A stretch of 47,954 bases of DNA, taken from contig NZ_JFHL01000008.1 in assembly GCF_003664995.1 (NCBI RefSeq), positions 1-47,954 on the forward strand, read 5' to 3'. Within the stretch, counting starts at the first letter, position 1; each line of letters begins with the position of its first letter. Of this stretch, positions 14,048 to 33,863 are shown piece after piece. The notes beneath the pieces were generated by a model. The model saw nothing but the letters and a program-made list of their open reading frames with translations, ran no database searches and was not told where the DNA came from. This stretch comes from Mesotoga sp. BH458_6_3_2_1. Its GTDB lineage: Bacteria; Thermotogota; Thermotogae; Petrotogales; Kosmotogaceae. The position numbers and the translations under genes were made by a program.

Positions 14048-14767
14048 TTATAATCTTGAATCTATCCTCGATGCATTTATTTCTACTAGCTCCGGATACT
14101 TTCTTAGAAGATCTATGATTTCACGCCAGTTCATTTTGTTGGCGTCATACTTTTCAACCATGATTCTCGTGAATTCCAGATCTTCGGGATAATCAACTGT
14201 GAGCCTGTAGTGCGATAAATCCTCTTGCAGAGGCACCTCAATGAGTTTGAATAGCTCAGGGTGTTCAATTATGTAAGGTGTTACATGCTCTCTCTCTCTC
14301 TTTTCTTTTCCGTTTTTCCAGGCAATTTCCAAAGCGTCGAAAGTGAATACTTCAATATCCAAACCATGCGGCCAAGTCCTTTTCTTCAATCGATTGGAGA
14401 CATAATCGGCACTTAATACCTTTTGGGTTAAGATAAGCAAGTCCATTACTTCTGGATCAACAAATGGGCAGTCAGAAGTGACCCTTACAATGATATCGGC
14501 TTTGAAATTTGAAGCAGTTTGAAAGTATCTATCTAGAACATCATCTTCGCTTCCTCTAAGAAAATCAATTCCTTTCTCCTTGCACCATTCTGAGATCAAA
14601 TCATCTATATTTGAAGTAGTAGTTGCAACTATCACTTTATCGATATACCTTGCCTGTTTAGCTCTATCTACTGAATATTCAAGAAGAGGCTTATTACCAA
14701 TCAACTTCATTGTTTTGCCCGGACTTCTTGTGGAACCGAGTCTTGCTTGTATAATTGCTGCTACCAT
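14048..14767 (-). CDS. SpsF-type cytidylyltransferase (probable CMP-pseudaminate synthase)
   Basis: A 239-aa protein with the nucleotide-binding start VAAIIQARLGSTRSPGKTM and then IVRVTSDCPFVDPEVMD, the metal and sugar-binding region of CMP-sugar synthetases. It belongs to the SpsF/COG1861 branch rather than the NeuA-like PseF of Campylobacter. As the last gene of the pse run, overlapping pseG by 7 nt, it is the best candidate for activating pseudaminic acid with CTP to CMP-pseudaminic acid. The ribosome site GAGGTGAAT lies inside the end of pseG. Family certain, substrate inferred from operon position. Confidence 0.8.
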   Translation of the reverse strand: MVAAIIQARLGSTRSPGKTMKLIGNKPLLEYSVDRAKQARYIDKVIVATTTSNIDDLISEWCKEKGIDFLRGSEDDVLDRYFQTASNFKADIIVRVTSDCPFVDPEVMDLLILTQKVLSADYVSNRLKKRTWPHGLDIEVFTFDALEIAWKNGKEKREREHVTPYIIEHPELFKLIEVPLQEDLSHYRLTVDYPEDLEFTRIMVEKYDANKMNWREIIDLLRKYPELVEINASRIDSRL

Positions 14768-15777
14768 CGTTTATTCACCTCATCAACTATTGCTTTAGCA
14801 GTTCTCATTACGCCTTTCCCATCAAATTTTGAGAACAACTCCGCTAGGTCATTCTTCTTTGCTTCTTTGATATCTGTTTCCCGTTGGATTATTTCAGGAA
14901 GTTTTTCAAAATCAATATTCTCATGCCATCCAAGATTCGTTATGCCAAAGCCCTCAAGCTTTTTGGATATCATTCTCTGGTTATCTGCGATAGTAAAGAT
15001 TACGGGCAAACGCTTCATTGCGAGTATCTCATAAATAGTTGAACCAGAGGCAGAAAGAACAATCGAGGAGTGAGCAATGTAGTCCTTCAAGCTAGAAGGT
15101 GTATATATTAGTTCGGAGTCTGTCATGTATTTGGATAACATCTCCAGTTTCCAAATTTGACTCTGTGAAAAGCCGGGGCCAACGATAACTTTCTTTTTCA
15201 CTGGCAATGTTTTCAGAGCCTCCAAGAACTTTGGCATCAGATCAAAGAAATCTGCTCCACCAGTAGTTATAATTAGACTCTTCTCGCTCTCATCGGAGCT
15301 TTCAGGACTCCAGTATTCACTTTTCATCACAAGATATTCCGGGCCTAGCAAGAATCTTGTCCTTTTCTTCTTGGAAACATAGTTCAAATCTCCGGCATGA
15401 ATATTGCCGTTGATGAGAATATCTGCGGAAATCTCGCCGCAAATGTCGTTGTTGTCATCGAACTGAACGAGAAAATGCTCTTTTGCCAATCCTTCAATAT
15501 AACTTGAATTAGCAAGATACGAATCAACAACCACAACGTCGGGATCAATAGTTCTTATTCTCTCTATATCGTTGTAGTTGAAGCTTTCTGAGCACATAAA
15601 AGCAAATCCATATTCGGAGATCTTATTTTCAGCTTCTGCATTCGCAAGAAAGACACTGTTAATACCGTACGATTCTAGCGCTTCTGCAAGAGAGAGACAT
15701 CTGAATAGGTGGCCAAAACCGATACTATTACTTGCGACAGTTTTGAATAGAACTTTCTCTATCTTGTTTTTATCCAT
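14761..15777 (-). CDS. pseG: PseG: UDP-6-deoxy-AltdiNAc hydrolase
   Basis: A 338-aa GT-B-like hydrolase. The N-terminal SNSIGFGHLFRCLSLAEAL holds the GxGHxxRC signature, with the probable catalytic His at 23. Further family landmarks are QFDDNNDICGEISADILING and VLSASGSTIYEILAMK. The enzyme removes UDP from UDP-2,4-diacetamido-2,4,6-trideoxy-L-altrose, giving the free sugar that PseI condenses. It overlaps pseH by 19 nt and the cytidylyltransferase by 7 nt, supporting one operon. Length is slightly above the common 270-350 range, with nothing missing. Confidence 0.88.
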   Translation of the reverse strand: MDKNKIEKVLFKTVASNSIGFGHLFRCLSLAEALESYGINSVFLANAEAENKISEYGFAFMCSESFNYNDIERIRTIDPDVVVVDSYLANSSYIEGLAKEHFLVQFDDNNDICGEISADILINGNIHAGDLNYVSKKKRTRFLLGPEYLVMKSEYWSPESSDESEKSLIITTGGADFFDLMPKFLEALKTLPVKKKVIVGPGFSQSQIWKLEMLSKYMTDSELIYTPSSLKDYIAHSSIVLSASGSTIYEILAMKRLPVIFTIADNQRMISKKLEGFGITNLGWHENIDFEKLPEIIQRETDIKEAKKNDLAELFSKFDGKGVMRTAKAIVDEVNKRW

Positions 15778-16277
15778 TTTTCTCTCAGGATAGACATCCT
15801 AATTGTATCTTTGAATTCGCCACGCTTAAAATACTCTTGCCTAAAACGACCTTCTTCGCTAAACCCCAATTTCTCGTATAGTTTAAACGCAGGTATGTTG
15901 TTTGCAAATAGCTCAAGGTAAATTTTATTAATAGGAAGATTTCTGAATACGTATTCTATGAAGATCTTACTAGAACCAAATGCGATCCCCTTTCCCTGGA
16001 AATCCTTCGCAATCAGTATTCCAAATTGAGCTTTTTGATGTCTGTAGTCGATATCGGTCAATCTTATCTGTCCAGCTCTTTCTGATTTGAATTCTACTAT
16101 CAATTCTATGTTATTCTTTGCTGCGGATTGGAGCCAACTATTATGAGAGAAGTCATATACGGGAGGATCGGAAAAGAATTCATCGGCAAATTCAAGATCG
16201 TTTCTTATACCAAGCAAGAACTCCGTGTCCTTTATACTTAGCGGACGCAGAAGTACATCTCCCTCTTCTAAAATCAT
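15759..16277 (-). CDS. pseH: PseH-type GNAT N-acetyltransferase
   Basis: A 172-aa GNAT protein: VLLRPLSIKDTEFLLGIRN at the N-terminus, the acetyl-CoA loop QFGILIAKDFQGKGIAFGSS in the middle, and LYEKLGFSEEGRFRQEYFKRG near the end. In the pathway it acetylates the 4-amino group made by PseC, using acetyl-CoA. The gene overlaps pseG and lies 56 nt after pseI. The start ATG has a GGGGG site. Confidence 0.85.
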   Translation of the reverse strand: MILEEGDVLLRPLSIKDTEFLLGIRNDLEFADEFFSDPPVYDFSHNSWLQSAAKNNIELIVEFKSERAGQIRLTDIDYRHQKAQFGILIAKDFQGKGIAFGSSKIFIEYVFRNLPINKIYLELFANNIPAFKLYEKLGFSEEGRFRQEYFKRGEFKDTIRMSILREKWIKTR

Positions 16278-16333: not shown

Positions 16334-17383
16334 CTATTCTTTACTTACTAAACTCCAGCTCAAAGGAGTACCACATTCTGTGTCATTAACAGCTTTTTTT
16401 CCAAGAATTTCTGGCAAGTACTTTGGATGCATACCATATCCCGGTCTTATGGATTTCACATTTTCTTCCGTGAATATGTCTCCCTTCTTCATATTTTTCA
16501 CCACAAAGAGCGATCTTGCCATAAGACGACTTCTCTGCTGTTTCTTGCTTAGTTCATATGTCGTTTTCCCTATTGCCTTTTCGGCTTCTCTAACAGCATT
16601 CACCATTGTTTTGAATTCATCTGGTTCGAGAGAAAATGGTGCATCTGGTCCGCCCAGATTTCTATCAAGAGTTAGGTGTTTTTCGATAATCTTTGCTCCA
16701 AGCGCAACTGAAAGAACGGCGGTCGTAATCGTATTTGTGTGGTCGGATAAGCCAGGGACGACATTAAAAGTCTCTCTAATGTTCTCGATTGTCTTCAAGT
16801 TAGTCTCTTCTATCGGAGTTGGATAAGCACTAACACACTTCAAAACTGCAATATCGTTGTTCTCGTGCTTCCTTATCGTTGACAAGGCCAATTCAATGTC
16901 AGCTAGCGTGGCCATTCCAATTGAGAATATTATGGGTTTTCTCTTCGAGGCAATACGGTCTATGAGAGGGATATCCGTTATCTCATACGAAGCGACTTTA
17001 TAAACAGGGATATCGAGATCTTCAAGAAAGTCAACTGAAGTCCTGTCAAACGGAGTGGAGAAGAAGATTAGTCCTTCCTCTTCAGCAATCTTCTTTAGTT
17101 TTGGCTGCCATTCCCAAGGCGTGTATGCTTCCTTGTACAGCTGATACAGATTCTTCCCTTCCCAGATGGTTTCATTCAGCCTGAAATACTTGTTGTTGCA
17201 GTCTATCGTCATAGTGTCCGGAGTGTATGTCTGAAGTTTAATAGCATCTGCGCCTGCATCTTTAGCTTTCTTTATGATTTCAACTGCATAATCGTACTTC
17301 TGCAGATGGTTGCACGACATCTCGGCAACAACAAAAACTGGATGATCGTCGCCTACAAGACGATCTCCTATCTTGAACTCCAC
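16334..17383 (-). CDS. pseI: PseI: pseudaminic acid synthase
   Basis: A 349-aa NeuB-family aldolase. The N-terminal TIM barrel carries FVVAEMSCNHLQKYDYAVEI, ADAIKLQTYTPDTMT and FFSTPFDRTSVDFLEDL, close to PseI rather than LegI or NeuB. A C-terminal SAF (antifreeze-like) domain begins near residue 285 (ARSLFVVKNMKKGDIF). It condenses the PseG product with phosphoenolpyruvate to pseudaminic acid. GTG 17383 is 6 nt after GAGGTGAT; another in-frame GTG at 17392 is possible. The gene begins just after pseC ends. Confidence 0.9.
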   Translation of the reverse strand: MEFKIGDRLVGDDHPVFVVAEMSCNHLQKYDYAVEIIKKAKDAGADAIKLQTYTPDTMTIDCNNKYFRLNETIWEGKNLYQLYKEAYTPWEWQPKLKKIAEEEGLIFFSTPFDRTSVDFLEDLDIPVYKVASYEITDIPLIDRIASKRKPIIFSIGMATLADIELALSTIRKHENNDIAVLKCVSAYPTPIEETNLKTIENIRETFNVVPGLSDHTNTITTAVLSVALGAKIIEKHLTLDRNLGGPDAPFSLEPDEFKTMVNAVREAEKAIGKTTYELSKKQQRSRLMARSLFVVKNMKKGDIFTEENVKSIRPGYGMHPKYLPEILGKKAVNDTECGTPLSWSLVSKE

Positions 17384-17393
17384 AAAGATCACC

Positions 17394-18530
17394 TCACTTT
17401 CCCAGACTCTTTATGGACTCTATTACGCAGTTCACTTCTTCGTCAGTCATTCTTGGATACATAGGTATAGAAAGCTCATGTTCATAGTAATACTCAGCAT
17501 TTGGATAATCGCCTCTCTTGAAGCCAAAGTTATCTCTGTAGTACGGCTGCAAGTGGACGGGTATGTAGTGTACTTGGGTAAATATTCCCCTTTCTCTCAG
17601 CTTCATATAGGCTTCTTTTCGATCTATTTGGGTCAGCAAAATCGGGTAAAGATGATATGCGTGCCGCGAGGTTTGTTGGGCTGGTTTTGGAGGAATCACA
17701 AGCCCTTCGATATCCTTGAACGCTTCATCATACATAGAAGCTATTTCGTTCCTTCTATCGAGAAAACCCTCTATCTTCTTTAACTGCGAAAGTCCTAGAG
17801 CACACTGGAAATCCGTGAGCCTATAGTTGAAACCAAGTTCTTGCATTTCGTAGTACCATGGCCCATCATTTCTTCTCAAAAGGGCTGGATCTTTCGTTAT
17901 ACCATGAGTAACAAAGATCTTCATTTTCTTGTAGTATTCCTCATTGTCAGTTGCTATAGCTCCGCCCTCTCCAGTGGTGATATGCTTCACTGGATGAAAG
18001 CTAAACAAAGACATCCCTGCTTCTGTTCCGACCATCTTGCCATTCCTTTTAGCTCCGAGAGCATGAGCCGAGTCTTCAACAACGACTAAGTTATGCCTTC
18101 CAGCAATCTCCATAACACTTTCAATATCCACTGGATACCCGGCAAGATCGACCGGGGCAATCACTTTGGTGTTCTCAGTAATCGCTTCCTCGATTCTTGA
18201 AGTATCGATGCAGTAAGTATTCAGATCAATATCCACAAATCTCGGTCTGGCTCCCAAATAGATCGCTGAATTTGAAGTAGCCACGAAGGTTATTGGAGAG
18301 GTAATTATCTCATCTCCAGGTCCGATTCCAGCCGCAAACATTGCGCCGTGTAGTGCGGAAGTTCCCGAACTGAAGGTGACAACATACTTGGCACCAACAT
18401 AATTCGCAATAGCTTTTTCGAACTCTTCGATATCTGGTCCCTGAGTCAACCAATCACTGCCAAGTACTTCTGCAACTGCTGATATATCTTCTTCATCTAT
18501 CCATTGTCTGCCGTAAGGGATATTGGTCAC
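17394..18530 (-). CDS. pseC: PseC: 4-aminotransferase (DegT/DnrJ/EryC1)
   Basis: A 378-aa PLP enzyme if started at GTG 18530, 10 nt after the SDR stop and preceded by GGGG; this gives the family-normal start TNIPYGRQWIDEEDI. SFHPVKHITTGEGG contains the PLP lysine (K182), VVEDSAHALGA the cofactor aspartate (D153), and FSSGTSALHGAM the phosphate-binding loop. It converts the 4-keto-L-arabino sugar to UDP-4-amino-4,6-dideoxy-AltNAc with glutamate. Full length, no odd features. Sits between the extra SDR and pseI. Confidence 0.9.
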   Translation of the reverse strand: MTNIPYGRQWIDEEDISAVAEVLGSDWLTQGPDIEEFEKAIANYVGAKYVVTFSSGTSALHGAMFAAGIGPGDEIITSPITFVATSNSAIYLGARPRFVDIDLNTYCIDTSRIEEAITENTKVIAPVDLAGYPVDIESVMEIAGRHNLVVVEDSAHALGAKRNGKMVGTEAGMSLFSFHPVKHITTGEGGAIATDNEEYYKKMKIFVTHGITKDPALLRRNDGPWYYEMQELGFNYRLTDFQCALGLSQLKKIEGFLDRRNEIASMYDEAFKDIEGLVIPPKPAQQTSRHAYHLYPILLTQIDRKEAYMKLRERGIFTQVHYIPVHLQPYYRDNFGFKRGDYPNAEYYYEHELSIPMYPRMTDEEVNCVIESIKSLGK

Positions 18531-18540
18531 GATTCGCCCC

Positions 18541-19482
18541 CTATAGTTCTGGATTGCTTTCAATCCATTTTTTCGTTTTCTCAATGCCCTTCTCGAGTGA
18601 GAATTTTGGTTCCCACCCTAGCAAGTCCCTAGCTTTGCTAGAATTGCACTTGAGTTTCATGATTTCAGCTTGCGGGTGAATATGTGGAACGTGCTTAATT
18701 AGTTTAGAAGTTCCTGCAATCATAAGAGCGAGATTGTTAATCGCAACATCGTTTCCCGTTCCCGCATTTATTATTTGGCCAAGAGCAAGGTCGTTGTTTC
18801 CTGCCCTTATTATAAAATCTACGCAATCTTCCACGTATAACAAATCTCTTGTTTGTGTTCCGTCCCCATATATTCTCAAAGGTTCATTCTTGAGAGCTTG
18901 CTTGACGAATATCGCCACTACTCCTCCCTCGCCGTTCGTTTTCTGGAAAGGACCATAAGTGTTGAATGGTCTGATAACAGCAGTTGGCAACCCGTAGGCA
19001 TGAAAATATGAAAGTGTGAGCGCTTCGCCGCTAAGCTTGGCCGCTGCGTATGGTGATGCGGGTTTGGTGGGGTGCTCTTCAGTTATTCCTGATTCGTCAT
19101 AACTGCGATCATAGACCATGCAGGTTGACATGAACACAACTCTCGTCTTCTGCTTTCTGCAATGTTCAAGAATATTGAAAGTTCCGAGAATGTCTCTTTC
19201 GATTGTCTGAGAGGGGTTATCTATAGAATTCTGTACATTGATCTCTGCGGCCAAATGATAGACAATATCGTATTCCTCTTCGAAAAGCTTCTCAAGAGTT
19301 CTCTCATTCCTTATGTCCCCTTCCAGAAAATGGAATGAGCCTCTTTGGAAAAACTCCTCGATATTCTCTCTTCTACCATTTGAGAAATCATCTATAGCAT
19401 TTACTGAATGGCCTTCATCTAGCAATCGCTTCACCAACCAGCGACCTATAAATCCTGCCCCACCCGTTACAAGAGTCTTCAT
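18541..19482 (-). CDS. Extended SDR epimerase/dehydratase inserted in pse operon
   Basis: A 313-aa NAD-dependent epimerase/dehydratase. TLVTGGAGFIGRWLVKRL is the Rossmann loop; FMSTCMVYD (S119, T120) and SPYAAAKLSGE (Y145, K149) form the catalytic set; the sugar-binding part includes RIYGDGTQTRDLLYVEDC. ATG 19482 overlaps the stop of the pseB-like gene as TAATG, so it is translated as part of the pathway. Canonical Campylobacter and Helicobacter pse pathways need no such enzyme. It could supply the C5 inversion that the PseB-like partner may not perform (compare the two-SDR Pen/Pal route of Bacillus thuringiensis), or make another sugar. Exact reaction unknown. Confidence 0.8.
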   Translation of the reverse strand: MKTLVTGGAGFIGRWLVKRLLDEGHSVNAIDDFSNGRRENIEEFFQRGSFHFLEGDIRNERTLEKLFEEEYDIVYHLAAEINVQNSIDNPSQTIERDILGTFNILEHCRKQKTRVVFMSTCMVYDRSYDESGITEEHPTKPASPYAAAKLSGEALTLSYFHAYGLPTAVIRPFNTYGPFQKTNGEGGVVAIFVKQALKNEPLRIYGDGTQTRDLLYVEDCVDFIIRAGNNDLALGQIINAGTGNDVAINNLALMIAGTSKLIKHVPHIHPQAEIMKLKCNSSKARDLLGWEPKFSLEKGIEKTKKWIESNPEL

Positions 19483-20522
19483 TACAAAACCTCTCCTTTG
19501 TTCAGTATATCCCATATTATCTCTTTTACTTGAGCATATTGGAGTATTGGTTCCTTCTCTGATGAGTACATACCAACTTTGGCTGGTTTTGCTTTTTCTT
19601 CATAGTGCATAACGTAATTCTCTCTTTCTCCAAAAAAAGGTAGTACTGCAAACATATCTTCAAGCTCTAATGCCCTCATACTCTCTTCTTCCGTCATTAA
19701 CTCCTCATACATCTTCTCGCCAGGTCTCTTTCCAATTATCCTCATTGAGTCGTTATCGAAGTACTCCATAACGCTTTTTGCAACATCTCCCATCCTGACA
19801 ACAGGCATTTTGAGAACAAATATCTCTCCTCCAAGAGACTCAATAGCAGCTTTTTGTATTAGCTCAACCGCTCTTTCTTTGCTCATAACAAAGCGAGTCA
19901 TATCTGGTTCTGTAAGAGTTAATGGAGACTTCTTTTTTGCCTGTTCGACAAATAGTGGAAGCACGCTACCACGACTCATTAAGATATTGCCGAATCTGAC
20001 GGACACGAATTTAGTCTTAGAGCTTCCCCTTGAGAATTGGGCTGCACTCATTAACCTTTCGGCAAGAAGTTTAGTAGCACCCATTGTGTTCGTTGGAGAG
20101 GCAGCTTTGTCTGTACTTGTATATACAACAGTTTCTACCCCAGTCTTCAGAGCAGCTTCGATCACATTCTGCACACCCAAAACATTCGTCTTGACAGCTT
20201 CAAAGGGATTGTATTCACAAGCTGGAACGTGTTTCATCGCGGCTACATTGAAAACGACATCTATTCCTTCCATTGCTCTCATTACTCTCTCTTTATCGCG
20301 GACATCACCAATTAGAAAACGAACATTTGCGGTACTGGGTATCTCGTTCCCATTGTCCGCGCTTTTTATTATCCCTAGCTCGTTCTCCATTATGAACTGT
20401 TTATGTTCGTCCCTGGAGAAAAGCCGAATGACTCGCGGGTTTTGCATCAGAAGACTGTAAAACAAGGTCTTTCCAACAGTCCCAGTTCCACCGATTATTA
20501 GGATGCTTTTGCCATTTAACAA
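19482..20522 (-). CDS. PseB-like UDP-GlcNAc 4,6-dehydratase
   Basis: A 346-aa soluble dehydratase of the FlaA1/CapD group. TTG 20522 gives MLNGKSILIIGGTGTVG, matching the usual family start, with AGGTGAG just upstream; GTG 20531 is an alternative. The Rossmann loop is GGTGTVG. The active-site segment reads TSTDKAASPTNTMGATK: T137, D138, K139 and K151 are present, but the usual tyrosine is Met147. A Met there is typical of the large WbpM/PglF-type enzymes, which retain C5, while PseB has Tyr and inverts it. It takes UDP-GlcNAc to a 4-keto-6-deoxy sugar as first step of the pse pathway. First gene of the operon. Confidence 0.85.
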   Translation of the reverse strand: MLNGKSILIIGGTGTVGKTLFYSLLMQNPRVIRLFSRDEHKQFIMENELGIIKSADNGNEIPSTANVRFLIGDVRDKERVMRAMEGIDVVFNVAAMKHVPACEYNPFEAVKTNVLGVQNVIEAALKTGVETVVYTSTDKAASPTNTMGATKLLAERLMSAAQFSRGSSKTKFVSVRFGNILMSRGSVLPLFVEQAKKKSPLTLTEPDMTRFVMSKERAVELIQKAAIESLGGEIFVLKMPVVRMGDVAKSVMEYFDNDSMRIIGKRPGEKMYEELMTEEESMRALELEDMFAVLPFFGERENYVMHYEEKAKPAKVGMYSSEKEPILQYAQVKEIIWDILNKGEVL

Positions 20523-20572
20523 TGTTCTCACCTACACCAAGATTTCTTTACTTCAGGTTCTTCACCATTCTC

Positions 20573-20912: not shown

Positions 20913-22100
20913 TCATAAAACTCTTTTGAAATAGCTTTTTGACATGCCTGGCTCCAAAAACTTTGCTTTCCATTCTTCAACGGAAGAAAGATAGTTCTGC
21001 TCAAAGAACACTTTAAGAGCAAGTTGCTGAGGCCAAAATGATTTCTCTTCGAACAATAGAGTTCCGTCATCCTGCAAAGAATATGCGCCGGCGACACCGT
21101 TCACTTTTAGTTGCTCGGGAGTCCTTACGTATATGAACGGGCTGATTTCAATTATCCAGTATTTTCCGTTTTCATCCTTTAGCATATCGACTCCAAGCAT
21201 TGCCTTTCCAATCTTGCTATAGGTTTCAAGAGCAATCTTAATAGCCTCGATGGGAAGATCTTCTTTTATTACGATCCCGCTCCCAGAAGCTCTGAAATCG
21301 TTCCCCCTTGGTTTCCTGTAGTATCCAAAGATCATTTTCCCAATTACATTGACCCTGGTATCCAGGCTATCGCCTTTCAAGAAACGCTGAAAGTAGATCG
21401 AGTTCTTCTGTCTCATGTACTTCAAATGTGTTCTCTTGCCGTAGATTGAAAAGACTTTCCTTACAATTCTCTTCGCGTCAGAGGGTTTTGTGACCAATGT
21501 GACTTCTTTTGAACCGGCTCCAAAAGATCCCTTTGAGACCAGTGGATAACTAAATCTGTTGATCATCCTATGGCTTTCTTTGTAGTCGCTCGAGATGAAA
21601 GTATCTGCGATTGGAAGATTGTTTATCCTTAGCAAATATGTCGAAAATATCTTGTCGTCACATAGCAAAAGAGTCTCATAGTCGGGAAAGCAGATCTTAC
21701 CCAGCTTCTTCTCAAGGATGTACACTTTTCTTTTAATGTCATCCATTTCGAACGGACCATCTTTTGGAGACCAGATAATAGTGTCAAATTTCGAAGCCTG
21801 CTCTATCCAGTCAGATCTATGGTGCTCGAATATTGAATAGGGGAATCCGTTTTTTTCAAGGAACAATGCGTACTTTGTCCAATACGGTGCTGCATTGCAA
21901 TCTTGTGTTAGCCCTACATAAGGTCTCTTGATCTCCTTTGGCCAATCGAGTTTTACTTCCTCGAAATTGAACTTCCATGGATCATCAAAGGTTGGGCTAT
22001 TCGATTCTGGAAACCAGAGAATTCTTTCCTTCAGTTTCCTCTTCGTTCCTTCAAACAAGATTTCCCTCCGTCTTTGTAATATATGATCTGTCTTGTACAC
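20913..22100 (-). CDS. ATP-grasp domain protein
   Basis: A 395-aa protein with an ATP-grasp fold. Visible parts: LLLCDDKIFSTYLL, the P-loop-like YPLVSKGSFGAGSKEV (residues about 185-200), the RVNVIGKMIFGYYRKPRGND strand pair, and the metal-binding end MLGVDMLKDENGKYWIIEIS. The pattern is RimK/carbamoyl-phosphate-like, so it should ligate a carboxylate to an amine or thiol using ATP. The N-terminal 110 residues are specific to this protein. By position it may attach an amino acid or another acid to the acidic or amino sugars of the polymer. The GTG start has a weak ribosome site. Substrate unknown. Confidence 0.7.
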   Translation of the reverse strand: MYKTDHILQRRREILFEGTKRKLKERILWFPESNSPTFDDPWKFNFEEVKLDWPKEIKRPYVGLTQDCNAAPYWTKYALFLEKNGFPYSIFEHHRSDWIEQASKFDTIIWSPKDGPFEMDDIKRKVYILEKKLGKICFPDYETLLLCDDKIFSTYLLRINNLPIADTFISSDYKESHRMINRFSYPLVSKGSFGAGSKEVTLVTKPSDAKRIVRKVFSIYGKRTHLKYMRQKNSIYFQRFLKGDSLDTRVNVIGKMIFGYYRKPRGNDFRASGSGIVIKEDLPIEAIKIALETYSKIGKAMLGVDMLKDENGKYWIIEISPFIYVRTPEQLKVNGVAGAYSLQDDGTLLFEEKSFWPQQLALKVFFEQNYLSSVEEWKAKFLEPGMSKSYFKRVL

Positions 22101-24728: not shown

Positions 24729-26135
24729 TTACTCCGATTTGTCTTTAAGAAGACTATTCAGAACGCTCACCAGTCTGTCTGCAGAACCATTGGCCATGAA
24801 TTTGTCATCAGATAAAGTAAGTTTTCCGCTACTACAAAAATCAATTGCTTCATCGACGGATCTCTCCTGAAAAACAACGCCTGAAAAACCCCTCAAAGCT
24901 TCGAGATGCTTCTGGTGATCTTCGAATCTCAGAACAACGGATGGTACGGAGTATTGAAGGGCGTCAAGTGCACATGTTGACGAGATGGTCAAATGAATAT
25001 CTGCTATTTTTAGTAATTCAAAAACCGAGAATGTGGATACAATGACGTTCCTGTCTTGAAAGGCGAAGTACTTCTCCTTTAGCTCACTGGGGTGTGGCTT
25101 GATTATTACAAAATAGCCCTTTTTTCCCAGCGAAGTGACAGCTTCGGCATAAGCTTTTGCTTCGTAAATTGGTTGTGTAGTGATCAAAGCGACCTGCTTA
25201 TCTTTTGAATCATTCTTAATTACCTGAACTTCAGGAATAGTTGGCTGGTTTTTCACTGACTCGATATAGTAGTTACCAACCACATGTATGCTTTCAGGTT
25301 TGAAAAGAACACTTTCATCTGTAAGAACTTCTTTAAATGCTTGACCATAGACAAGCAATTCATCTGGCGTATCACTTCTATTTACTACATGCCTGTATAT
25401 ATATCCAGCGTGAAACCTGTTTATTATGCCGTGCTGGATCTCCGCAACTGGAATTCCGCGAAGCTTTGCTGCATAGGTTAACGCTCTTGAAGATAGATTA
25501 TACGAGCAGACCTCGAGAACTAGTTTCGGAGTAAGCCTATCCAGCATATCTTCCATCAAAGAAATCAGCGCCAAATATCTGGGTACAACTTTCCTAATGC
25601 TCGCAATGAAATCTTCGATTCCTTGTGAATCCAGGAAACCTTTCAAAAGGTTTGTTATTTTGCTGAGAATTCCGTCTGCGCGTTTTTGGTAACTTTTTGC
25701 TTTAATGAGGCTCTTTGTGAGAAGATTCATTCCTGATATTCTCTGCTTAGTGAACACGTTGTGCCTTGGATTAGGAACTGAAACATTAGGTATCTCGATA
25801 ATGGAATAGCTATGTTCTGTAAGCTTTCCAATCCAGTCAATATATATGTCAAACTCCGATCCTTCAAATTCCCTTCTAGTTGTGTTAGCAGATATAGCTA
25901 GAATCTCGTTTTCCATGGGCAATTTAGAATTCAGCAATGAAGAAACCATCGTAGAGAGCATTCTTATGCTCTTCGAATTAGAGTACCTAGAACTGAAATC
26001 CCCGGTCAAGTGAGAAAACAAACTAGTCCTTACAACATTCCAAAGCGGAATCTCATCAATCATCAGTTCAGTACATGCATTGCCCCGCTCTTGCTCTATC
26101 CTCGAGATTATTGATAGTGCTCTTGCGCTATCCAT
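24729..26135 (-). CDS. GT-B capsule-type transferase, possible nonulosonate transferase
   Basis: A 468-aa protein. ATG 26135 overlaps the upstream GT2 gene by 8 nt and is chosen over TTG 26156. The C-terminal half resembles capsule or polysialyltransferase-like GT-B proteins: IPVAEIQHGIINRFHAGYIY, GKKGYFVIIKPHPSELKEKY with an HP motif, then LTISSTCALDALQYSVPSVV. HP plus a downstream Ser/Thr cluster is a feature of bacterial sialyl- and related transferases that use CMP-sugars. The N-terminal 190 residues are unassigned. Since the locus makes CMP-pseudaminic acid and needs a transferase, this is my best candidate, but that is inference. Confidence 0.6.
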   Translation of the reverse strand: MDSARALSIISRIEQERGNACTELMIDEIPLWNVVRTSLFSHLTGDFSSRYSNSKSIRMLSTMVSSLLNSKLPMENEILAISANTTRREFEGSEFDIYIDWIGKLTEHSYSIIEIPNVSVPNPRHNVFTKQRISGMNLLTKSLIKAKSYQKRADGILSKITNLLKGFLDSQGIEDFIASIRKVVPRYLALISLMEDMLDRLTPKLVLEVCSYNLSSRALTYAAKLRGIPVAEIQHGIINRFHAGYIYRHVVNRSDTPDELLVYGQAFKEVLTDESVLFKPESIHVVGNYYIESVKNQPTIPEVQVIKNDSKDKQVALITTQPIYEAKAYAEAVTSLGKKGYFVIIKPHPSELKEKYFAFQDRNVIVSTFSVFELLKIADIHLTISSTCALDALQYSVPSVVLRFEDHQKHLEALRGFSGVVFQERSVDEAIDFCSSGKLTLSDDKFMANGSADRLVSVLNSLLKDKSE

Positions 26136-27138
26136 GGACAAATATCCTTTGTACAAGTCCCTTCAAAGATCCTATGCCGTATGCTATATGGAGAACAATA
26201 AACCCAGTGAATGCTGGCAAGAAGAGATCAAATCTTCCGGGTTTCAATGAGATACCCAACGATGCGATGAGCAATAACGAGATGTACAAGGTGATAATAG
26301 TTAGGTAGAAGATTCTCACCAAAGGCACCCATATGGAAATCAAACCGAATACTACAATGAAGGAAACGAAAAGATACGGAACGATGTGCCTTAGTGAGAA
26401 CGGTATGTTAGAGAATTGAGAACCAGCGATTACCCAGTAGCCGTTCCCAAAGCTGTTTCTCCACAGATCCTTATAGGTAGATCGGGCAAAATAAGTGAAT
26501 TCGATATCTGGGAAGAGTACAATCTTTCCTCCTGCCCGCTTTAGTCGTAAATTCAACTCGATGTCTTGATTCCTTACAAGCTGCTCATTGAAATACCCGA
26601 TCCTATCGAAAACCTCTCGCTTGTAGCAGCCGAAAGGCACAGTATCTACTTCTGTAGGTCTGCTTACACCTGTCCTGAACTTGGCTCCTCCAACCCCAAG
26701 AGGGCTTGAGAGAACCTTTGAGATAGCAATTCCGACACACGATTCGACTCGCGGTTCCGTCTTCATCACTCCGCCAACATTGTCTGCTCCAGTCTCGATG
26801 GCATGTTTGATACACCTCGAGATGTAGTCTGAGGGCATCTCGCTATGTGCACCGCTGAATAATATATATTCACCTCTTGAAGCCTTCACTCCTAAGTTCA
26901 GTGCAACAGGAGTAATAAGCTTCTGATTCTTGATTAGAATGATTCTCCTGTCTCGTTCGCAATACCTCTTGACTATTTCGTCTGTGCCATCTTCACTCAT
27001 CCCATCAACAATGATTATTTCCATCAAGTGCTCAGGATAGTCAGATACGATAAACGAATTCAGACACTTTTCGATGAAATGAACTTCATTCCTGGTCGGG
27101 ACTATTATTGTAACTTTCGGCAATTCCTGCTCTTCCAC
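26128..27138 (-). CDS. GT2 glycosyltransferase with membrane tail
   Basis: A 336-aa GT-A enzyme. VTIIVPTRNEVHFIEKCLNS is the nucleotide-binding start, EIIIVDGMSEDGTDEIVKRY follows, and LFSGAHSEMPSDYI occupies the usual metal (DxD-like) position, with Ser-Gly-Ala-His instead of two aspartates. RNQDIELNLRLKRAGGKIVL is the catalytic-base ED-type region (QDIE). Residues about 245-330 hold three hydrophobic segments, so it is membrane-anchored. GTG 27138 has GGAGG upstream. Probably adds or polymerises a sugar on lipid carrier at the inner membrane face. Confidence 0.82.
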   Translation of the reverse strand: MEEQELPKVTIIVPTRNEVHFIEKCLNSFIVSDYPEHLMEIIIVDGMSEDGTDEIVKRYCERDRRIILIKNQKLITPVALNLGVKASRGEYILFSGAHSEMPSDYISRCIKHAIETGADNVGGVMKTEPRVESCVGIAISKVLSSPLGVGGAKFRTGVSRPTEVDTVPFGCYKREVFDRIGYFNEQLVRNQDIELNLRLKRAGGKIVLFPDIEFTYFARSTYKDLWRNSFGNGYWVIAGSQFSNIPFSLRHIVPYLFVSFIVVFGLISIWVPLVRIFYLTIITLYISLLLIASLGISLKPGRFDLFLPAFTGFIVLHIAYGIGSLKGLVQRIFVHG

Positions 27139-27186: not shown

Positions 27187-28236
27187 CTAGCCAAGCAGCG
27201 AAGCAATTTCTGCTGCAGCATTTCCTGAACCGTAAAGCCCTTTCTCATACTTAGTTTCATGAATGAGGAGAAGTGATTCTCGGATCATTTCTGGAGATGT
27301 TAGGCAGTTGATTCCAGCATCGACTAGCTCAATCCAGCCAGTATCAGGCATTATTACTACCGCTTGTTTGCCTGCGAAGTAGCTCTCTTTCTGAAGTCCA
27401 CCGCTATCGGTAATCACTTTCCATGAATGCTTGACAAGTCCCATCATCGACAAGTAGTCAAGCGGGTCTATTATGTCTAGATTCTCTAAGTGATTCTCAA
27501 GACCAAACCCCTCAATTCGCTTTCTCGTTCTAGGATGAATTGGAAAGACTATTCTCTTGTCCTTCACAATCATGTTGAGTTGTTTGAGAATCTCCTCTAG
27601 CCTATACCTATTATCTGTATTGAAGTCTCTATGAATTGTCACAACAACGTATCCATTTTCTTCAAGGTCGAGTTGCTCTGACAAAGAATAATCGAATTGT
27701 TTCTCCATCTTCAAGTATAGGTCGTACATCACGTCGCCAGTAAACCAAACCCCTTTTTCCATTCCCTCTTTCTTAAGGTTTTTCACCGCCGTCTGTGATG
27801 GACAGAACAAGATGCTAGAAATTCTATCCGTTAAAACCCTGTTTATTTCTTCAGGCATATCTCTGGGTTCTTGACGCATACCTGCTTCCACATGAGCAAC
27901 GCGTATCTTCAGCTTCGCAGAAACTAACGCTCCGGCAACAGTTGCATTTGTGTCTCCGTAAACAAGTACAACGTCAGGCTCTTCTTTTATCACAACTTCT
28001 TCTAGACGCATCATCGTTAACCCGGTCTGCACAGCGTGACTACCAGAACCAACTCCAAGATTGTAGTCGGGCTCCTTGATTTCTAAGCTATTGAAGAACA
28101 CTTCTGACATGTTGTAATCATAATGCTGACCCGTATGTATTAGCACGTGTTCAAAACCTGCTTTTCTCAGTTCTTCTCCAACTACCGCTTCTTTAATAAA
28201 CTGGGGCCTCGCACCCACTATAGTAGCTATCTTCAA
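27187..28236 (-). CDS. WbpI/WecB-type UDP-sugar 2-epimerase
   Basis: A 349-aa non-hydrolysing 2-epimerase. MKIATIVGARPQFIKEAVV opens the protein; HTGQHYDYNMSEVFF, LVYGDTNATVAGALVSAKL, VAHVEAGMRQEPRDMPEEIN and ITDSGGLQKESYFAGK are family hallmarks including active-site Asp, Glu and His residues. WecB acts on UDP-GlcNAc and WbpI on UDP-Glc(2NAc3NAc)A. Because dehydrogenase, oxidase, transaminase and acetyltransferase of that route lie upstream in the same run, the WbpI reaction giving UDP-ManNAc3NAcA is favoured. TTG start after GGAG. Confidence 0.85.
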   Translation of the reverse strand: MKIATIVGARPQFIKEAVVGEELRKAGFEHVLIHTGQHYDYNMSEVFFNSLEIKEPDYNLGVGSGSHAVQTGLTMMRLEEVVIKEEPDVVLVYGDTNATVAGALVSAKLKIRVAHVEAGMRQEPRDMPEEINRVLTDRISSILFCPSQTAVKNLKKEGMEKGVWFTGDVMYDLYLKMEKQFDYSLSEQLDLEENGYVVVTIHRDFNTDNRYRLEEILKQLNMIVKDKRIVFPIHPRTRKRIEGFGLENHLENLDIIDPLDYLSMMGLVKHSWKVITDSGGLQKESYFAGKQAVVIMPDTGWIELVDAGINCLTSPEMIRESLLLIHETKYEKGLYGSGNAAAEIASLLG

Positions 28237-28267
28237 GATTCACTCCTGTATTTGTGCTTTGTAAGTA

Positions 28268-29416
28268 CTATTCAAATTTGACTGGTACTCCCTCTCTGGC
28301 AGACTTGTAAATTCCGAGAATGATCTCCACAGATTTCTTGCCTTCTTCTCCGTTGACGAACGGTTCTCGATCATCGATAATCGCTCTCGCGAAATCCTTG
28401 AAGGCCGTCATATGGCCTGAACCATAGACCGTATCCGGGTCAGGCAAATCCATGAACGGGTGTGACTCCTCGCCTTCGAACTTCCAGGTCTGGATTTTGT
28501 TCACAGCCAACCCACCCAATACGACCGTTCCCTTTTCACCGAAAACCGACAGGGTCTCTTCCAGATTCCTCGGATATACGTTTGCCGTTCCTTCGATTAT
28601 ACCAATAGAGCCGTTCTTGAATCTAACGATCGCAGCCCCAAAATCCTCTGTCTCTATATAAGGGTGCTTGTAGTTCTCGGTCATTGCAAATATCTCTTGG
28701 ACTTCCCCTCCCAGCATCCATTGAAGAAGGTCGATGTTGTGGGCGCACTGGTTCATGATAGTGCCGCCATCCATCGCCCAAGTTCCTCTCCAGCTGGCCT
28801 GCCTGTAATATTCCTCGTTTCTATTCCAGAGGATCCTCGCCGTTGCAGTGAACACTCTTCCGAACTTACCTGAATCGATTGCCTTTCGAAGTTCCTGAAC
28901 TGGAGGATTAAATCTGTTTTGAACGCAAACGGCAAGTTTCAGGTTCTTCTCTCTCGATAGGGCTATCATCTGGTCCATGTGTTCTGAGGCCAGTGCCATT
29001 GGCTTTTCAACAAGGATGTGCTTTCCAGCCGACAAAAAGTCAATTGTATTTCTAAAGTGATTCCCGCTCTCAGTGGCGATGGTGACGAAATCGATCTGAG
29101 ACGAGAAGAGCTCTTTGTAGTCGGAGATTACGCGTGGACGTTGGAGATCAGGCTTGGATGCTGGAGAGGAAGGGAGTCTGTTTTGGCTATTCTTGGTCTC
29201 GTTTTTCTCTCCTATTCTCTCTTTTTCTCCTTCTCCGCGATTAAGCGATATCTCTCGTATCTTCATGTATTCTTCAGCTGCTCTTTCGGCTTTCTCTGGT
29301 ACAAGATCGCAAACAGCAACGAGATCAATCAAATCACTGTTGGCTGCAAAGGCTTCTATGTGTTTTTTTGTTCCAATTCTTCCGCATCCAATAAGCGCGG
29401 CACGTAGTTTTTTCAT
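28268..29416 (-). CDS. WbpB-like Gfo/Idh/MocA oxidoreductase with insertion
   Basis: A 382-aa NAD-dependent sugar oxidoreductase. RAALIGCGRIGTKKHIEAF is the Rossmann loop; LVEKPMALASEHMDQM has the catalytic EKP lysine; GGTIMNQCAHNIDLLQWMLG is the substrate-binding His segment typical of WbpB/WlbA. The expected role is oxidation of the 3-OH of UDP-GlcNAcA. Odd feature: residues about 53-95, between the second and third Rossmann strands, are an extra low-complexity stretch rich in Glu, Lys, Ser and Pro, encoded by pyrimidine-rich plus-strand DNA (about 29132-29260) resembling intergenic repeats. The reading frame survives. ATG 29416 is used; upstream residues are not conserved. Confidence 0.82.
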   Translation of the reverse strand: MKKLRAALIGCGRIGTKKHIEAFAANSDLIDLVAVCDLVPEKAERAAEEYMKIREISLNRGEGEKERIGEKNETKNSQNRLPSSPASKPDLQRPRVISDYKELFSSQIDFVTIATESGNHFRNTIDFLSAGKHILVEKPMALASEHMDQMIALSREKNLKLAVCVQNRFNPPVQELRKAIDSGKFGRVFTATARILWNRNEEYYRQASWRGTWAMDGGTIMNQCAHNIDLLQWMLGGEVQEIFAMTENYKHPYIETEDFGAAIVRFKNGSIGIIEGTANVYPRNLEETLSVFGEKGTVVLGGLAVNKIQTWKFEGEESHPFMDLPDPDTVYGSGHMTAFKDFARAIIDDREPFVNGEEGKKSVEIILGIYKSAREGVPVKFE

Positions 29417-29534
29417 TTTGTCACTCCGATCTTTTAAGTTATGGAGAAAGAGCATTGTCGAGAAGGAGAGACGACACTTCGTGTCGAGAAAAATTAACGA
29501 CGAAGGATTATCTCTTCTTACATCAATTCCCCCT

Positions 29535-29906
29535 TCAGGTTGATTTCGAAATACTCTTCCTTCTAATTGACGTAATGAGATTCATCAGCATCTTTCTCAG
29601 TGTTTCATAACTCTCTATCAGACTTGAATAATCTGCTTCTTTGAGATACCCAAGCCTCTTGGAAATATCAATTTGAGTTCTCAGTTCCATCAGCGATCCT
29701 CTTGCGTTATATAAGAAGTGCAAATACTCTTTTGAATGACCCCTTCCATTTCCTTCAGCAATGTTAGACGGAACTGATATTGCAGCTCTTCTCATTTGAG
29801 AAACAAGGCAGTATCTCTCTTCTTCTGGAAAGCTCCTTGTTAATTTGTAGATTCTCTCTACAAAGCTCATAGATACTTCGTAGATCTCCATTTCGAAAAA
29901 AGCCAC
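29535..29906 (-). CDS. Four-helix-bundle protein (23S rRNA IVP / S23 family), second copy
   Basis: A 123-aa protein with the S23 core RRAAISVPSNIAEGNGRGHS (about residues 38-57) and ARGSLMELRTQIDISKRLGY. It differs clearly from the copy at 5728, so it is not a recent duplicate. GTG 29906 or ATG 29891 are possible starts; neither has a strong ribosome site. Location inside the wbp-like gene run, between the nucleotide-sugar dehydrogenase and the WbpB-like gene, is unusual and suggests insertion. Function unknown. Confidence 0.8.
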   Translation of the reverse strand: MAFFEMEIYEVSMSFVERIYKLTRSFPEEERYCLVSQMRRAAISVPSNIAEGNGRGHSKEYLHFLYNARGSLMELRTQIDISKRLGYLKEADYSSLIESYETLRKMLMNLITSIRRKSISKST

Positions 29907-30010
29907 TCTTACTTTTTACTCTCCTTTCTCTCTTATTCTCGGCGATGTTCCTCGCCGTCTCCAAAAAGTCTCTATGTTTTTCACCAATAACGCACAACCA
30001 ACAACGGTAA

Positions 30011-31315
30011 CTAAAGAACTTCTATATTTTCGCCTGCGATGCCCATTTTGCTGAGGACGTTTTTCGCGTCGAAAACGTATTTTGCGTTCTTTACAATCAT
30101 TGAATAGTTTATGAGCTTTTTGTGTGCCGTCGTGATTATTACTGCGTCCGACTCTTTTATTAACTCTTCTGTGAGGTTGACAGTCTTAACGGTCTTTCCT
30201 TCCCAGATAAATTCAGGAACATAAGGATCGACAACAGAGACATGGGCAAGATTCTTTTCAAGGTGTTCTAGAACTTTCAGGGCTGGGGACTCTCTCATGT
30301 CTTCTATATCTTCTTTATATGCGATGCCTAGCATGACGACTTTCGCGCCGTTCATGCATATACCGCGTTCGTTCAAAGCCTTCATAACCCTTGTGACAAC
30401 GTATTCGGGCATTGAGTCGTTTATCTCTCCGGAGAGTTCTATCAGGCGCGTGTGATAGTCGTACTTGCGCGCTATGTATGTAAGATAGAAGGGATCTATG
30501 GGGATACAATGACCTCCGACTCCGGGACCGGGGAAGAAGGGCATGAAGCCAAAGGGTTTCGTCGAGGCGGCATTTATTACGTCCCAGATGTTGATTCCCA
30601 TTTTGTCCGCGACTACTGCCATTTCGTTAATCAAGGCTATATTTACTATCCTGAATGTATTCTCGAGAATCTTTGTCATCTCCGCTTCTTTCGGAGATGA
30701 AACGACGAAGACTTCGGCATCAAGAACCGATTCGTAAAGAAGCTTCGCTACTTCGGTAGATTCCGGACCTACTCCTCCGACTACTTTTGGTGTGTTCTTC
30801 GTTTTGTATCTAAGGTTTCCCGGATCAACTCTTTCCGGACTGAAGGCGAGATAGAAGTCCTTTCCGCATACAAGACCAGTTTCTTCAAGAATAGGCTTCA
30901 TAACATCTTCTGTGGTTCCGGGATATGTTGTTGATTCAAGAACTACTAGCATGTCTTTGTGGAGTCTCTTCGCGACATTTTCTGTTGAGTTGATCACATA
31001 CGTGAGATCCGGCTGTTTAAAGACGTCAAGGGGAGTGGGAACACAGATCGCAATTACATCGCAGCCTGCCAGTTCTTCAAAATCGGCAGTCGCGCGAAGA
31101 TGACCATCAGAGACTATCTTCTCGAGATCAGCGTTGACAACATCACCGATGTAGTTGTGCCCCTCATTGACCATCTTCACTTTGCTTTCCTGGATATCAA
31201 AACCGATTACTTTGAAACCGGCCTTGGCCTTCTCTACCGCTAACGGCAATCCTACATAGCCAAGGCCGATTACGCCGATTATCGCCGATTTGTCTAAAAT
31301 CCTTTCTTTGAGCAT
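30011..31315 (-). CDS. WbpA-like UDP-N-acetylhexosamine 6-dehydrogenase
   Basis: A 434-aa nucleotide-sugar dehydrogenase. ATG 31315 follows GGAGG; the longer frame upstream is discarded. IGVIGLGYVGLPLAVEKA binds NAD; FSPERVDPGN and GPGVGGHCIPIDPFYL hold substrate contacts and the catalytic cysteine C270. The C-terminal UDP-binding domain includes VVMLGIAYKEDIEDMRESPA. It oxidises the C6 hydroxyl to a carboxylate; with WbpB/E/D/I-like partners nearby the substrate is most likely UDP-GlcNAc. Full length for the family. Confidence 0.88.
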   Translation of the reverse strand: MLKERILDKSAIIGVIGLGYVGLPLAVEKAKAGFKVIGFDIQESKVKMVNEGHNYIGDVVNADLEKIVSDGHLRATADFEELAGCDVIAICVPTPLDVFKQPDLTYVINSTENVAKRLHKDMLVVLESTTYPGTTEDVMKPILEETGLVCGKDFYLAFSPERVDPGNLRYKTKNTPKVVGGVGPESTEVAKLLYESVLDAEVFVVSSPKEAEMTKILENTFRIVNIALINEMAVVADKMGINIWDVINAASTKPFGFMPFFPGPGVGGHCIPIDPFYLTYIARKYDYHTRLIELSGEINDSMPEYVVTRVMKALNERGICMNGAKVVMLGIAYKEDIEDMRESPALKVLEHLEKNLAHVSVVDPYVPEFIWEGKTVKTVNLTEELIKESDAVIITTAHKKLINYSMIVKNAKYVFDAKNVLSKMGIAGENIEVL

Positions 31316-31463
31316 GGAAACCTCCTGTATTTTGAAGCGAGACAACGACTGGATGTTGGAGATAGACGAGATTACGTGATGACGTTGAGATATTAAGATC
31401 ATTATGACCGTTGATCAGAACATCCTATATGCAATCTCTCGTCCTCTCGAGATTTTTCTCTCG

Positions 31464-32195
31464 TTATTCTCGCTCTTCATAGAATACTTGTTCTTCTATC
31501 AGCTGTTCTTGTGGTACGTCTCGGATAAATTTTGCAGGGATGCCTGCGTACATCTTTCTTGGAGCCAGATCTTTTGTAACGACGCTTCCAGCCGCAACCA
31601 ACGCATCCTCACCTACAGTTACTCCCGGAAGCAGTGTTGCATTTGCCCCAATTCGAGCTCCTTTTCTTAATGTTGGCCCTTTGAAGTGATTTTTTCTCTC
31701 TTCTGTTCTGCCCAGATAGTTGTCATTTGTGAAGGTTACCTCAGGGGCGATGAAGCAGTAGTCTTCAATAGTTGAGAAGGCTGTTACGTAGGCTCCGGTT
31801 TCTATCTTAACTCTCTTCCCAACTGAGGTTCCGTTCTCGACAGTGGCTCCCTTTCCGACAATTGTTCTATCTCCGATTGTCGTCTTCTCTCGAATAGTTG
31901 CAAGGTCACCCACAAAGCACTTTTCTCCCAGAGAGGCTCCCTTGTAGATAACACACGAGGCGCCTATTGTAGTTCCATTGCCGAGCGATAGTGGTTTGAG
32001 TTCTTCAATACTTGTAGTGGCGCTTGTACTGGCTGCAAAGGGCTCTTTTCCAAGGACTGTATTGTCTCCTATCGTTACATCGTCTCCTATGACCACACCT
32101 CTGTGGATTACAGCGTTGTGGCCTATCACGCAATTTTCACCGATCTTCGCACCGTCTTCGATTATTACGTTAATTCCTTTTTCGATGTTAGACAT
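31464..32195 (-). CDS. WbpD-like hexapeptide N-acetyltransferase
   Basis: A 243-aa left-handed beta-helix protein. Almost the whole chain consists of hexapeptide turns such as [20 protein letters not shown] and [20 protein letters not shown], ending with the capped [17 protein letters not shown] 32195 has GGAGG 7 nt upstream; the 18 residues before it come from a spacer repeat. The role in the WbpA-E-D-I route is acetylation of the 3-amino group made by the DegT-type enzyme. WbpD proteins are nearer 190 aa, so this one carries an extra coil or two. Confidence 0.8.
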
Positions 32196-32555
32196 GGGAG
32201 TACCTCCATGTGAGGTTGCTCGTTGTGGGTTGCTGGTTGTAGGTGACAAGATACGACAAGGAAATTGTCGAGAAGCTCGCGAAGCGAGCGAGACGTTTCT
32301 GCGACACGAGAGATTTTATAGAACCAAAGAAACAATGGAGGACTTTGCCTGCAACTTCTAGAAACAAATGCAAAGCAGATAACCTACAGAATCTCGCAAG
32401 TGTAGTCGTTCCAAGATTCTCATCCCAAAAACCCAGTGCATACTCGTTTTTTAACAAACCAAACCACCTCGATCAATTCATTTCCTTTCTCTATTCATAG
32501 TGTCTTGAAGTTTCTTTCTCGCGCAACGCGCACTCTCGAAAACGCCCTTTCTCTC
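32196..32555. other. Spacer with GTTGT-rich repeat and hairpin
   Basis: A long gap for an operon. Contains CGTTGTGGGTTGCTGGTTGT at 32221-32240, the same kind of sequence found inside the neighbouring aminotransferase gene, and the hairpin GCTCGC-GAA-GCGAGC at 32275-32289. The minus-strand frame at 32188-32457 is open but matches nothing I know; a pyrimidine-rich stretch follows (32505-32575). Confidence 0.6.
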
Positions 32556-33863
32556 TTATCTCTCGTTCGTAACAGATTCAGCGATCTTGTCGACCACATA
32601 TTTGATTTCTTCGTCTGTCATCTCGGGGAATATTGGCAAAGCGAGTGTTTCTTCACAGGCCATTTCGGTTTCCGGGAGCGCTCCTGTTGGGACTCCTAAA
32701 TATGCAAAACACTTCTGCTGGTGGAGACCCATTGGATAGTAGATCGAAGTGCCTATGCCCTGTTCTGCCAAATAATCCCTCAACGAGTCTCTCTGTTCTC
32801 TACTGAAACCCTCGAATCTCACAACGTATTGATGAAAGACGTGAGAGAAGCAGTAATCGTTTGCCGTTCTCGGTTCGCCGTTCATCGAATAAGGAGCAGA
32901 AGGGCAGTGGATCACCACATCGCTGTACGTTGTAGGTTGTGCGTTGTGCGAAGAACGGTCCTTCGTCATTTGTTGCGTGTTGTCCGAAAGAAATTGATCT
33001 TCATCCATACTCGAGACCCCAAACCCCAGACCCGCTCTTTCGAAGTGCTCTGCGTATTTGCTGGCTATTTCAATTCTTCTTCTTTCATATTCTTGAAGGT
33101 GCTTGAGCTTTGTGTTGAGGACTATCGCCTGAAGCTCATCGAGTCTCGAGTTGATTCCTATCATGTCGTGAACGTACTTCACAGGCGAGCCATGGACTCT
33201 GTAGCTCCTGCAGAATGCAGCGAGCTCGTCGTCATCTGTTGTGATCATCCCGCCGTCGCCATATGCACCGAGATTCTTCGTAGGAAAGAAAGAGAAGGTT
33301 GAAAGGTCTCCGATTGAACCTGTCATCACCGTCGATCCATCAGGATAGCTCCAGCTCGCACCTATCGACTGCGCACAATCTTCTATTATCTTGACACCAT
33401 ATATTTCTCTAATATTTTCGAGTCGACCGAGTTCCATTGACTGACCAAATAAATGAACTGGGATGATAGCCTTTATTCTTTCCCTTTCGGGATGTATCTG
33501 AAGTAGCTCCTCAACTTTGTCAAGATCGATGTTGTAAGTTATCGGGTCAATATCTGCAAAGAGCGGCGTTGCTCCATTTCTTGTAATAGAGCTAACGGTA
33601 GCGAAAAAAGTATAAGGAGTAGTTATCACGTAGTCTCCAGGACCGATTCCCAGAGCGGCGACGGCAATAAGAAGAGCATCGGAACCGTTTGCCACACCAA
33701 TCGCGTGTTTAACCCCGATAAGATCTGCTATGCTTTTTTCCAGCTCTTTTACGGCTTCACCGAGAATTACCCTCCCCCCAAGAAGCGCTTCATCGATCTT
33801 TCCGAGTAGCTCTTCTCTCAAATCACTGTACTGTCTAGTCAAATCAAATAATGGTATATGCAT
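32556..33863 (-). CDS. WbpE-like 3-aminotransferase (DegT family) with insertion
   Basis: A 435-aa PLP transaminase; ATG 33863 follows GGAGG. VANGSDALLIAVAALGIGPG is the phosphate loop, IIEDCAQSIGA has the cofactor aspartate and SFFPTKNLGAYGDGG the PLP lysine K196. It would transaminate UDP-3-keto-GlcNAcA. Odd feature: residues about 284-336 are an extra segment (with NAQPTTYS and NGEPRTAND) that splits the usual C-terminal domain before HVFHQYVVRF. The coding DNA there (about 32856-33014) contains GTTGTAGGTTGTGCGTTGTG, like the adjacent spacer repeat. The frame is intact, so the enzyme may still work. Usual family length is about 360-380. Confidence 0.82.
   Translation of the reverse strand: MHIPLFDLTRQYSDLREELLGKIDEALLGGRVILGEAVKELEKSIADLIGVKHAIGVANGSDALLIAVAALGIGPGDYVITTPYTFFATVSSITRNGATPLFADIDPITYNIDLDKVEELLQIHPERERIKAIIPVHLFGQSMELGRLENIREIYGVKIIEDCAQSIGASWSYPDGSTVMTGSIGDLSTFSFFPTKNLGAYGDGGMITTDDDELAAFCRSYRVHGSPVKYVHDMIGINSRLDELQAIVLNTKLKHLQEYERRRIEIASKYAEHFERAGLGFGVSSMDEDQFLSDNTQQMTKDRSSHNAQPTTYSDVVIHCPSAPYSMNGEPRTANDYCFSHVFHQYVVRFEGFSREQRDSLRDYLAEQGIGTSIYYPMGLHQQKCFAYLGVPTGALPETEMACEETLALPIFPEMTDEEIKYVVDKIAESVTNER

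Follow-up and report, generated by a model that had tools for sequence, protein, structure and literature searches.

A methionine-bearing Pen–Pal gene pair as the predicted two-enzyme entry to CMP-pseudaminic acid in a Mesotoga genome

How does an operon apparently devoted to pseudaminic acid, a sugar that requires inversion at C5, make its first intermediates when its dehydratase carries Met in place of the catalytic Tyr and is followed by an additional short-chain dehydrogenase/reductase (SDR)? This question is raised by two genes in a 47,954-nucleotide stretch of Mesotoga sp. BH458_6_3_2_1 (contig NZ_JFHL01000008.1, positions 1 to 47,954; hereafter the window). The initial annotation described the first gene product as a PseB-like enzyme and proposed that the pair performs in two steps what PseB does in one, as described for Pen and Pal of Bacillus thuringiensis. 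Our analyses uphold the proposed replacement of PseB: the SDR is an ortholog of Pal, the dehydratase groups within the Pen clade, and no PseB is encoded in the genome. We consider it probable that these genes are a Pen–Pal pair providing a two-step entry to CMP-pseudaminic acid via UDP-6-deoxy-GlcNAc-5,6-ene, and, by analogy, very likely that they do the same job as the B. thuringiensis pair with a variant active site. Gene identity, orthology, operon structure, co-occurrence and conservation were observed directly and are presented first.

The dehydratase is encoded on the reverse strand by open reading frame (ORF) 19482–20531 (product TSTDKAASPTNTMGATK), which we designate pen, Met subtype, a predicted UDP-GlcNAc dehydratase. 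Its motif TDKAASPTNTMGATK, within the wider stretch VVYTSTDKAASPTNTMGATKLLAERL, places Met at the catalytic Tyr position, corresponding to residue 150 when counted from GTG 20531 or 147 from TTG 20522, the latter start, with AGGTGAG just upstream, being at least as plausible. In GTG numbering the [ST]DK acid/base pair is found in T140-D141-K142, followed by M150 and K154, and neither D141 nor K142 varies across the 32 aligned rows. The substitution, which the initial annotation had pointed out, can be read directly in the ORF and is not a chance feature, since the same motif recurs in orthologs (41–73% identity) adjoining the same SDR gene in dozens of genomes. Equally, the SDR gene does lie directly downstream, its ATG overlapping the dehydratase stop codon as TAATG.

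The Met had been taken as typical of dehydratases that retain C5, and thereby as the reason for a second enzyme. The first part of this argument holds only in so far as the retaining enzymes WbpM and PglF have Met at the Tyr position (PMC8987622); CapE, which also has Met for Tyr, is reported to dehydrate and to invert C5 (PMC3699295). Since retaining and inverting enzymes both carry it, Met alone says nothing on C5, and as a mark of C5 retention it was rejected on the grounds that CapE/FnlA invert with Met. The second part falls away, as B. thuringiensis Pen has Tyr and yet needs Pal.

By sequence, phylogeny and predicted fold, the dehydratase belongs with B. thuringiensis Pen. Its best sequence match in the PDB was Pen (6bwc, 306 bits), ahead of CapE (234) and FlaA1/PseB (231), and a fold search with its AlphaFold model (mean predicted local distance difference test score 91.7) placed Pen first (E 1.2e-39), followed by FlaA1 (3.8e-33), WbjB and CapE. 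The comparison with Pen phylogeny that had been suggested earlier bore this out: in a tree without SpsM and PglF the window enzyme and B. thuringiensis Pen formed one clade (support 100/98), and in a tree with SpsM and a PglF outgroup it lay within the bacterial Pen clade (96/94), outside the PseB, CapE/FnlA, SpsM and PglF clades. The designation as a PseB-like pse dehydratase therefore has to be replaced: on the PseB model TIGR03589 the enzyme scores 313.9 bits, below the cut-off of 407.75, as do Pen homologs of Bacillus, Methanolobus and Syntrophomonas (306–339 bits), whereas the true PseB of four other Thermotogota exceed it, one scoring 549. This score, Met150 for Tyr and membership of another clade together ruled out PseB. 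Against the FnlA model TIGR04130 the enzyme scores 245 bits (cut-off 730), a cut-off that a scanned Thermotogota member of the FnlA clade also fails to reach (546). At the thresholds used, no residue was diagnostic for both Pen forms and absent from every other group. Table 1 of PMC8987622 lists the catalytic Tyr of YxxxK for Pen, a position at which the window enzyme has Met150; we have filed it as a variant Pen of the Met subtype rather than a standard one. Since the 59 distinct Pen-family rows comprise 27 with Met and 32 with Tyr, descent within the family is not marked by Tyr, which is a trait of the assayed member.

The SDR gene, pal, occupies 18541–19482 on the reverse strand and encodes a 313-residue extended SDR with a YAAAK motif, predicted to act as a UDP-6-deoxy-GlcNAc-5,6-ene 4-oxidase/5,6-reductase/5-epimerase. 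Of all sequences in the PDB, B. thuringiensis Pal matched it best (6bwl, E 3.9e-118; 57.6% identity over 311 residues), far ahead of the runner-up, a UDP-glucose 4-epimerase (E 3e-57). It retains 122 of 124 Pal positions, each more than 90% conserved in both the Met- and the Tyr-partnered Pal sets, while other extended SDRs of the genus retain about 55–59 of 102 near-invariant Pal positions. On this sequence evidence the SDR is an ortholog of Pal.

The two genes also travel together. Among 103 Thermotogota genomes Pal occurs in four, and these are exactly the four that encode a Pen-clade enzyme, while the four with true PseB lack it; within one genus of this phylum, one genome has PseB and the other has Pen and Pal (G061 and G062). 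In the class of Syntrophomonas (63 genomes), 14 genomes have Pen, 14 have Pal and 13 have both, the two mismatches being contig ends (L006/L225 begins just before Pal; L204 stops inside Pal). Fisher tests gave p values of 2e-7 and 2e-11, respectively, which overstate independence, the genomes being related by descent. The arrangement of Met-Pen beside Pal is often seen in Thermotogota, in Syntrophomonadia and other Clostridia, and in methanogens. In the window genome there is no PseB, and the sole other PseB-like enzyme is of PglF type. Since the other nine genomes of the genus have no Pal, the operon is an island in this genome, most likely acquired by transfer. As a separate observation, pen of Syntrophomonas palmitatica (L021:2702-3765) is split over two overlapping frames, representing a pseudogene or a sequencing error.

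The genes that follow indicate which sugar the pair serves. pen and pal head a seven-gene operon, a number equal to that of the enzymes in the B. thuringiensis pathway (PMC7439481), and all seven lie on the reverse strand. They are followed by the PseC aminotransferase (17394–18584, likely start GTG 18530; TIGR03588 502.4 bits, cut-off 423.5), the PseI pseudaminic acid synthase (16334–17392; TIGR03586 478.4 bits, cut-off 340.25), a PseH-type GNAT N-acetyltransferase (15759–16277) and a PseG-type UDP-sugar hydrolase (14761–15777), the last two being assigned by operon position together with scores below the respective cut-offs (70.4 against 93.1 bits for PseH; 130.5 against 153.55 for PseG). 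A cytidylyltransferase (14048–14767) with KDO cytidylyltransferase-type matches is a candidate PseF (CMP-pseudaminic acid synthetase), homologs of which recur in Pen–Pal loci at 30–48% identity. In the Pen–Pal locus of Bacillus tequilensis, PseC (505 bits) and PseI (508 bits) also lie above the Pse cut-offs, while SpsC homologs (397–417 bits) and SpsE homologs (253–258 bits) of SpsM-bearing Bacillus lie below them. Judged by these scores, PseC and PseI of the operon belong to the pseudaminic and not to the Bacillus Sps (legionaminic) type, and the pathway therefore most likely needs the C5-inverted UDP-4-keto-6-deoxy-L-AltNAc. Our literature searches found no paper that links Mesotoga to pseudaminic acid or Thermotogae to nonulosonic acid.

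Within the Pen family, the Met form appears to be the older. Met rows come from Thermotogota, Syntrophomonadia, other Clostridia and archaea of the Methanolobus order (all archaeal rows recovered with Pen have Met) and form the deep branches, while the Tyr rows, from Bacilli, Negativicutes and Thermotaleaceae, share a single clade (98/94) nested among them. Met-Pen formed a single clade in 0 of 200 bootstraps, and forcing the bacterial Met-Pen into one clade lowered the log-likelihood by 29 (approximately unbiased (AU) test, p 0.062). In its simplest reading, this nesting strongly favours Met as the older state, with Tyr gained once; the sole Pen known to be assayed, that of B. thuringiensis, has a Tyr that looks derived. 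A single clade of all Pen including the archaeal rows was not the best tree with the PglF outgroup, but the AU test did not reject it (p 0.35). Only Pen residues 137 and 150 split by Met or Tyr form. Residue 137, which is Tyr in the Met form and Phe in the Tyr form, was considered as compensation for the lost Tyr and rejected, because the one Met row inside the Tyr-Pen clade (L050) has Phe at 137. In the tree, the Pen of a record titled Lutibacter sp. B2 (Bacteroidota; L024) falls firmly among those of Thermotaleaceae, and this assembly is probably mislabelled. Separately, many Bacillus genomes (L244-L260, L262-L266) carry an SpsM-type Met dehydratase on a long branch near Pen.

How might a Pen with Met work? 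By analogy with the B. thuringiensis enzyme, Pen would oxidise C4 of UDP-GlcNAc, eliminate water across C5–C6 and then re-reduce C4 to give UDP-6-deoxy-GlcNAc-5,6-ene. In the absence of the SDR Tyr, Thr140 and Asp141 would take over the O4 proton transfers, with Lys142 handling C5/C6, as has been proposed for PglF, in which the Thr and Asp of TDK would assume the role of Tyr (PMC8987622); both residues are present in the window dehydratase. We infer the chemistry, the intermediate and these roles by analogy. No Pal position splits by partner type in the alignment of Met- and Tyr-partnered sets, and in Pen only the two residues named above do so, which together suggest that Pal receives one common intermediate, the 5,6-ene, from both forms of Pen. 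Several points weigh against this reading. The re-reduction of C4, in which Pen differs from 4,6-dehydratases, would normally use the Tyr as acid, and no assay of a Met-Pen turned up in the literature searched. SpsM, likewise a Met enzyme, for which a C5-retained 4-keto product has been deduced (PMC7439481), lies near Pen in the tree, and archaeal Pen, L177 and SpsM branch in no firm order near the root of the tree with outgroups.

The strongest alternative, which we nevertheless regard as unlikely, is that Met-Pen releases the C5-retained 4-keto sugar and that Pal then inverts C5 of this ketone, again in two steps but through another intermediate; on this view, to which we give a similarly low probability, the route through the 5,6-ene in B. 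thuringiensis would have come later, as a variant brought about with the change from Met to Tyr. This alternative is closest to the chemical argument of the initial annotation, and it draws on PglF/WbpM (PMC8987622) and SpsM (PMC7439481), which have Met and give the retained product, on the position of the Bacillus SpsM clade (recognised here by Met at residue 146) near Pen in trees, and on the finding that B. thuringiensis Pen and Pal together also yield the retained 4-keto sugar in vitro (PMC7439481). In B. subtilis SpsM, M146A causes a partial and K150A a total loss of legionaminic acid, and complementation points to a C5-retained product (PMC7439481); in a strain deleted for spsM, legionaminic acid was not fully recovered with B. 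thuringiensis Pen alone. However, the window enzyme groups in the Pen clade and not with SpsM or PglF, SpsM-like Bacillus loci have no Pal adjoining the gene, and Pal shows no residue change by partner, although B. thuringiensis Pal is described as acting on the 5,6-ene. That the Met enzyme is alone a C5-inverting 4,6-dehydratase like CapE/FnlA, leaving the Pal-like SDR dispensable or otherwise employed, is very improbable: CapE is reported to be such an enzyme with Met (PMC3699295), but the window dehydratase lies outside the CapE/FnlA clade as well as outside PseB, co-occurs strictly with Pal, and has a neighbour that is Pal-like at nearly all diagnostic positions. Equally improbable is an operon that is Pse-like in looks only and yields legionaminic acid through an Sps-type pathway as in B. 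subtilis: although the B. subtilis genes for that acid resemble pse genes and are headed by one for a Met dehydratase (PMC7439481), the window has Pal, and its PseC and PseI exceed the Pse cut-offs that SpsC and SpsE homologs do not reach.

The surroundings of the Pen–Pal operon, and of related loci elsewhere, may bear on the glycan produced. The gene immediately upstream of pen, which runs the same way, encodes a 395-residue RimK-like ATP-grasp protein (20913-22100), and further on a 475-residue protein (24729-26156) matches the Pfam alpha-2,8-polysialyltransferase family (29.7 bits, gathering threshold 23.3), making it a candidate pseudaminic acid transferase or polymerase. The region 27187-33944 encodes a UDP-GlcNAc 2-epimerase, a Gfo/Idh/MocA oxidoreductase, a UDP-sugar dehydrogenase, a hexapeptide acyltransferase and a DegT aminotransferase, which together make up the WbpA/B/E/D/I-like set expected for UDP-ManNAc3NAcA, so that the glycan may hold this sugar besides pseudaminic acid. 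In one methanogen locus (L232:456-3927), Met-Pen and Pal are followed by an RmlD-like reductase, not PseC, and then by a NeuB-like synthase, and in loci of this type what the pair makes may go into a nonulosonate whose C7 carries a hydroxyl instead of an amino group. In two further methanogen loci (L236, L237), a low-identity synthase follows Pen–Pal at about 0.85 kb, an observation that covers the pair and the synthase.

The Pen–Pal pair itself was already known; new here is that Met-Pen beside Pal is widespread and lies deep in the Pen family. Pseudaminic acid biosynthesis does not always begin with PseB, and many database entries named 'PseB-like' or 'CapD' beside an 'NAD-dependent epimerase' are better annotated as Pen–Pal. 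Furthermore, Pen offers a natural experiment, in which Met and Tyr forms occur in one family with Pal unchanged and Pse-type enzymes downstream, and this contrast bears on whether re-reduction of C4, the step that yields the 5,6-ene, depends on Tyr.

In comparison with known systems, the window dehydratase is closest to B. thuringiensis Pen (6bwc), with which it shares 49% identity on the family alignment, the pairing with Pal, the STDK motif and the active-site Lys154, and from which it differs in having Met150 for the catalytic Tyr; it also has Tyr137 where Tyr-Pen usually has Phe. With PseB (FlaA1, Cj1293) it has fold, substrate and pathway slot in common, but PseB has Tyr where the window enzyme has Met, and the PseB genomes of the phylum are without Pal. 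The inverting CapE, FnlA and WbjB, together with SpsM and the retaining PglF and WbpM, resemble it in carrying Met-x3-K for Tyr-x3-K and the TDK motif, yet they form separate clades at 36–42% mean identity and were not seen paired with Pal. Finally, the window Pal has the STCMVY and YxxxK motifs of B. thuringiensis Pal (6bwl), and the one difference seen between them is that its partner is a Met-Pen.
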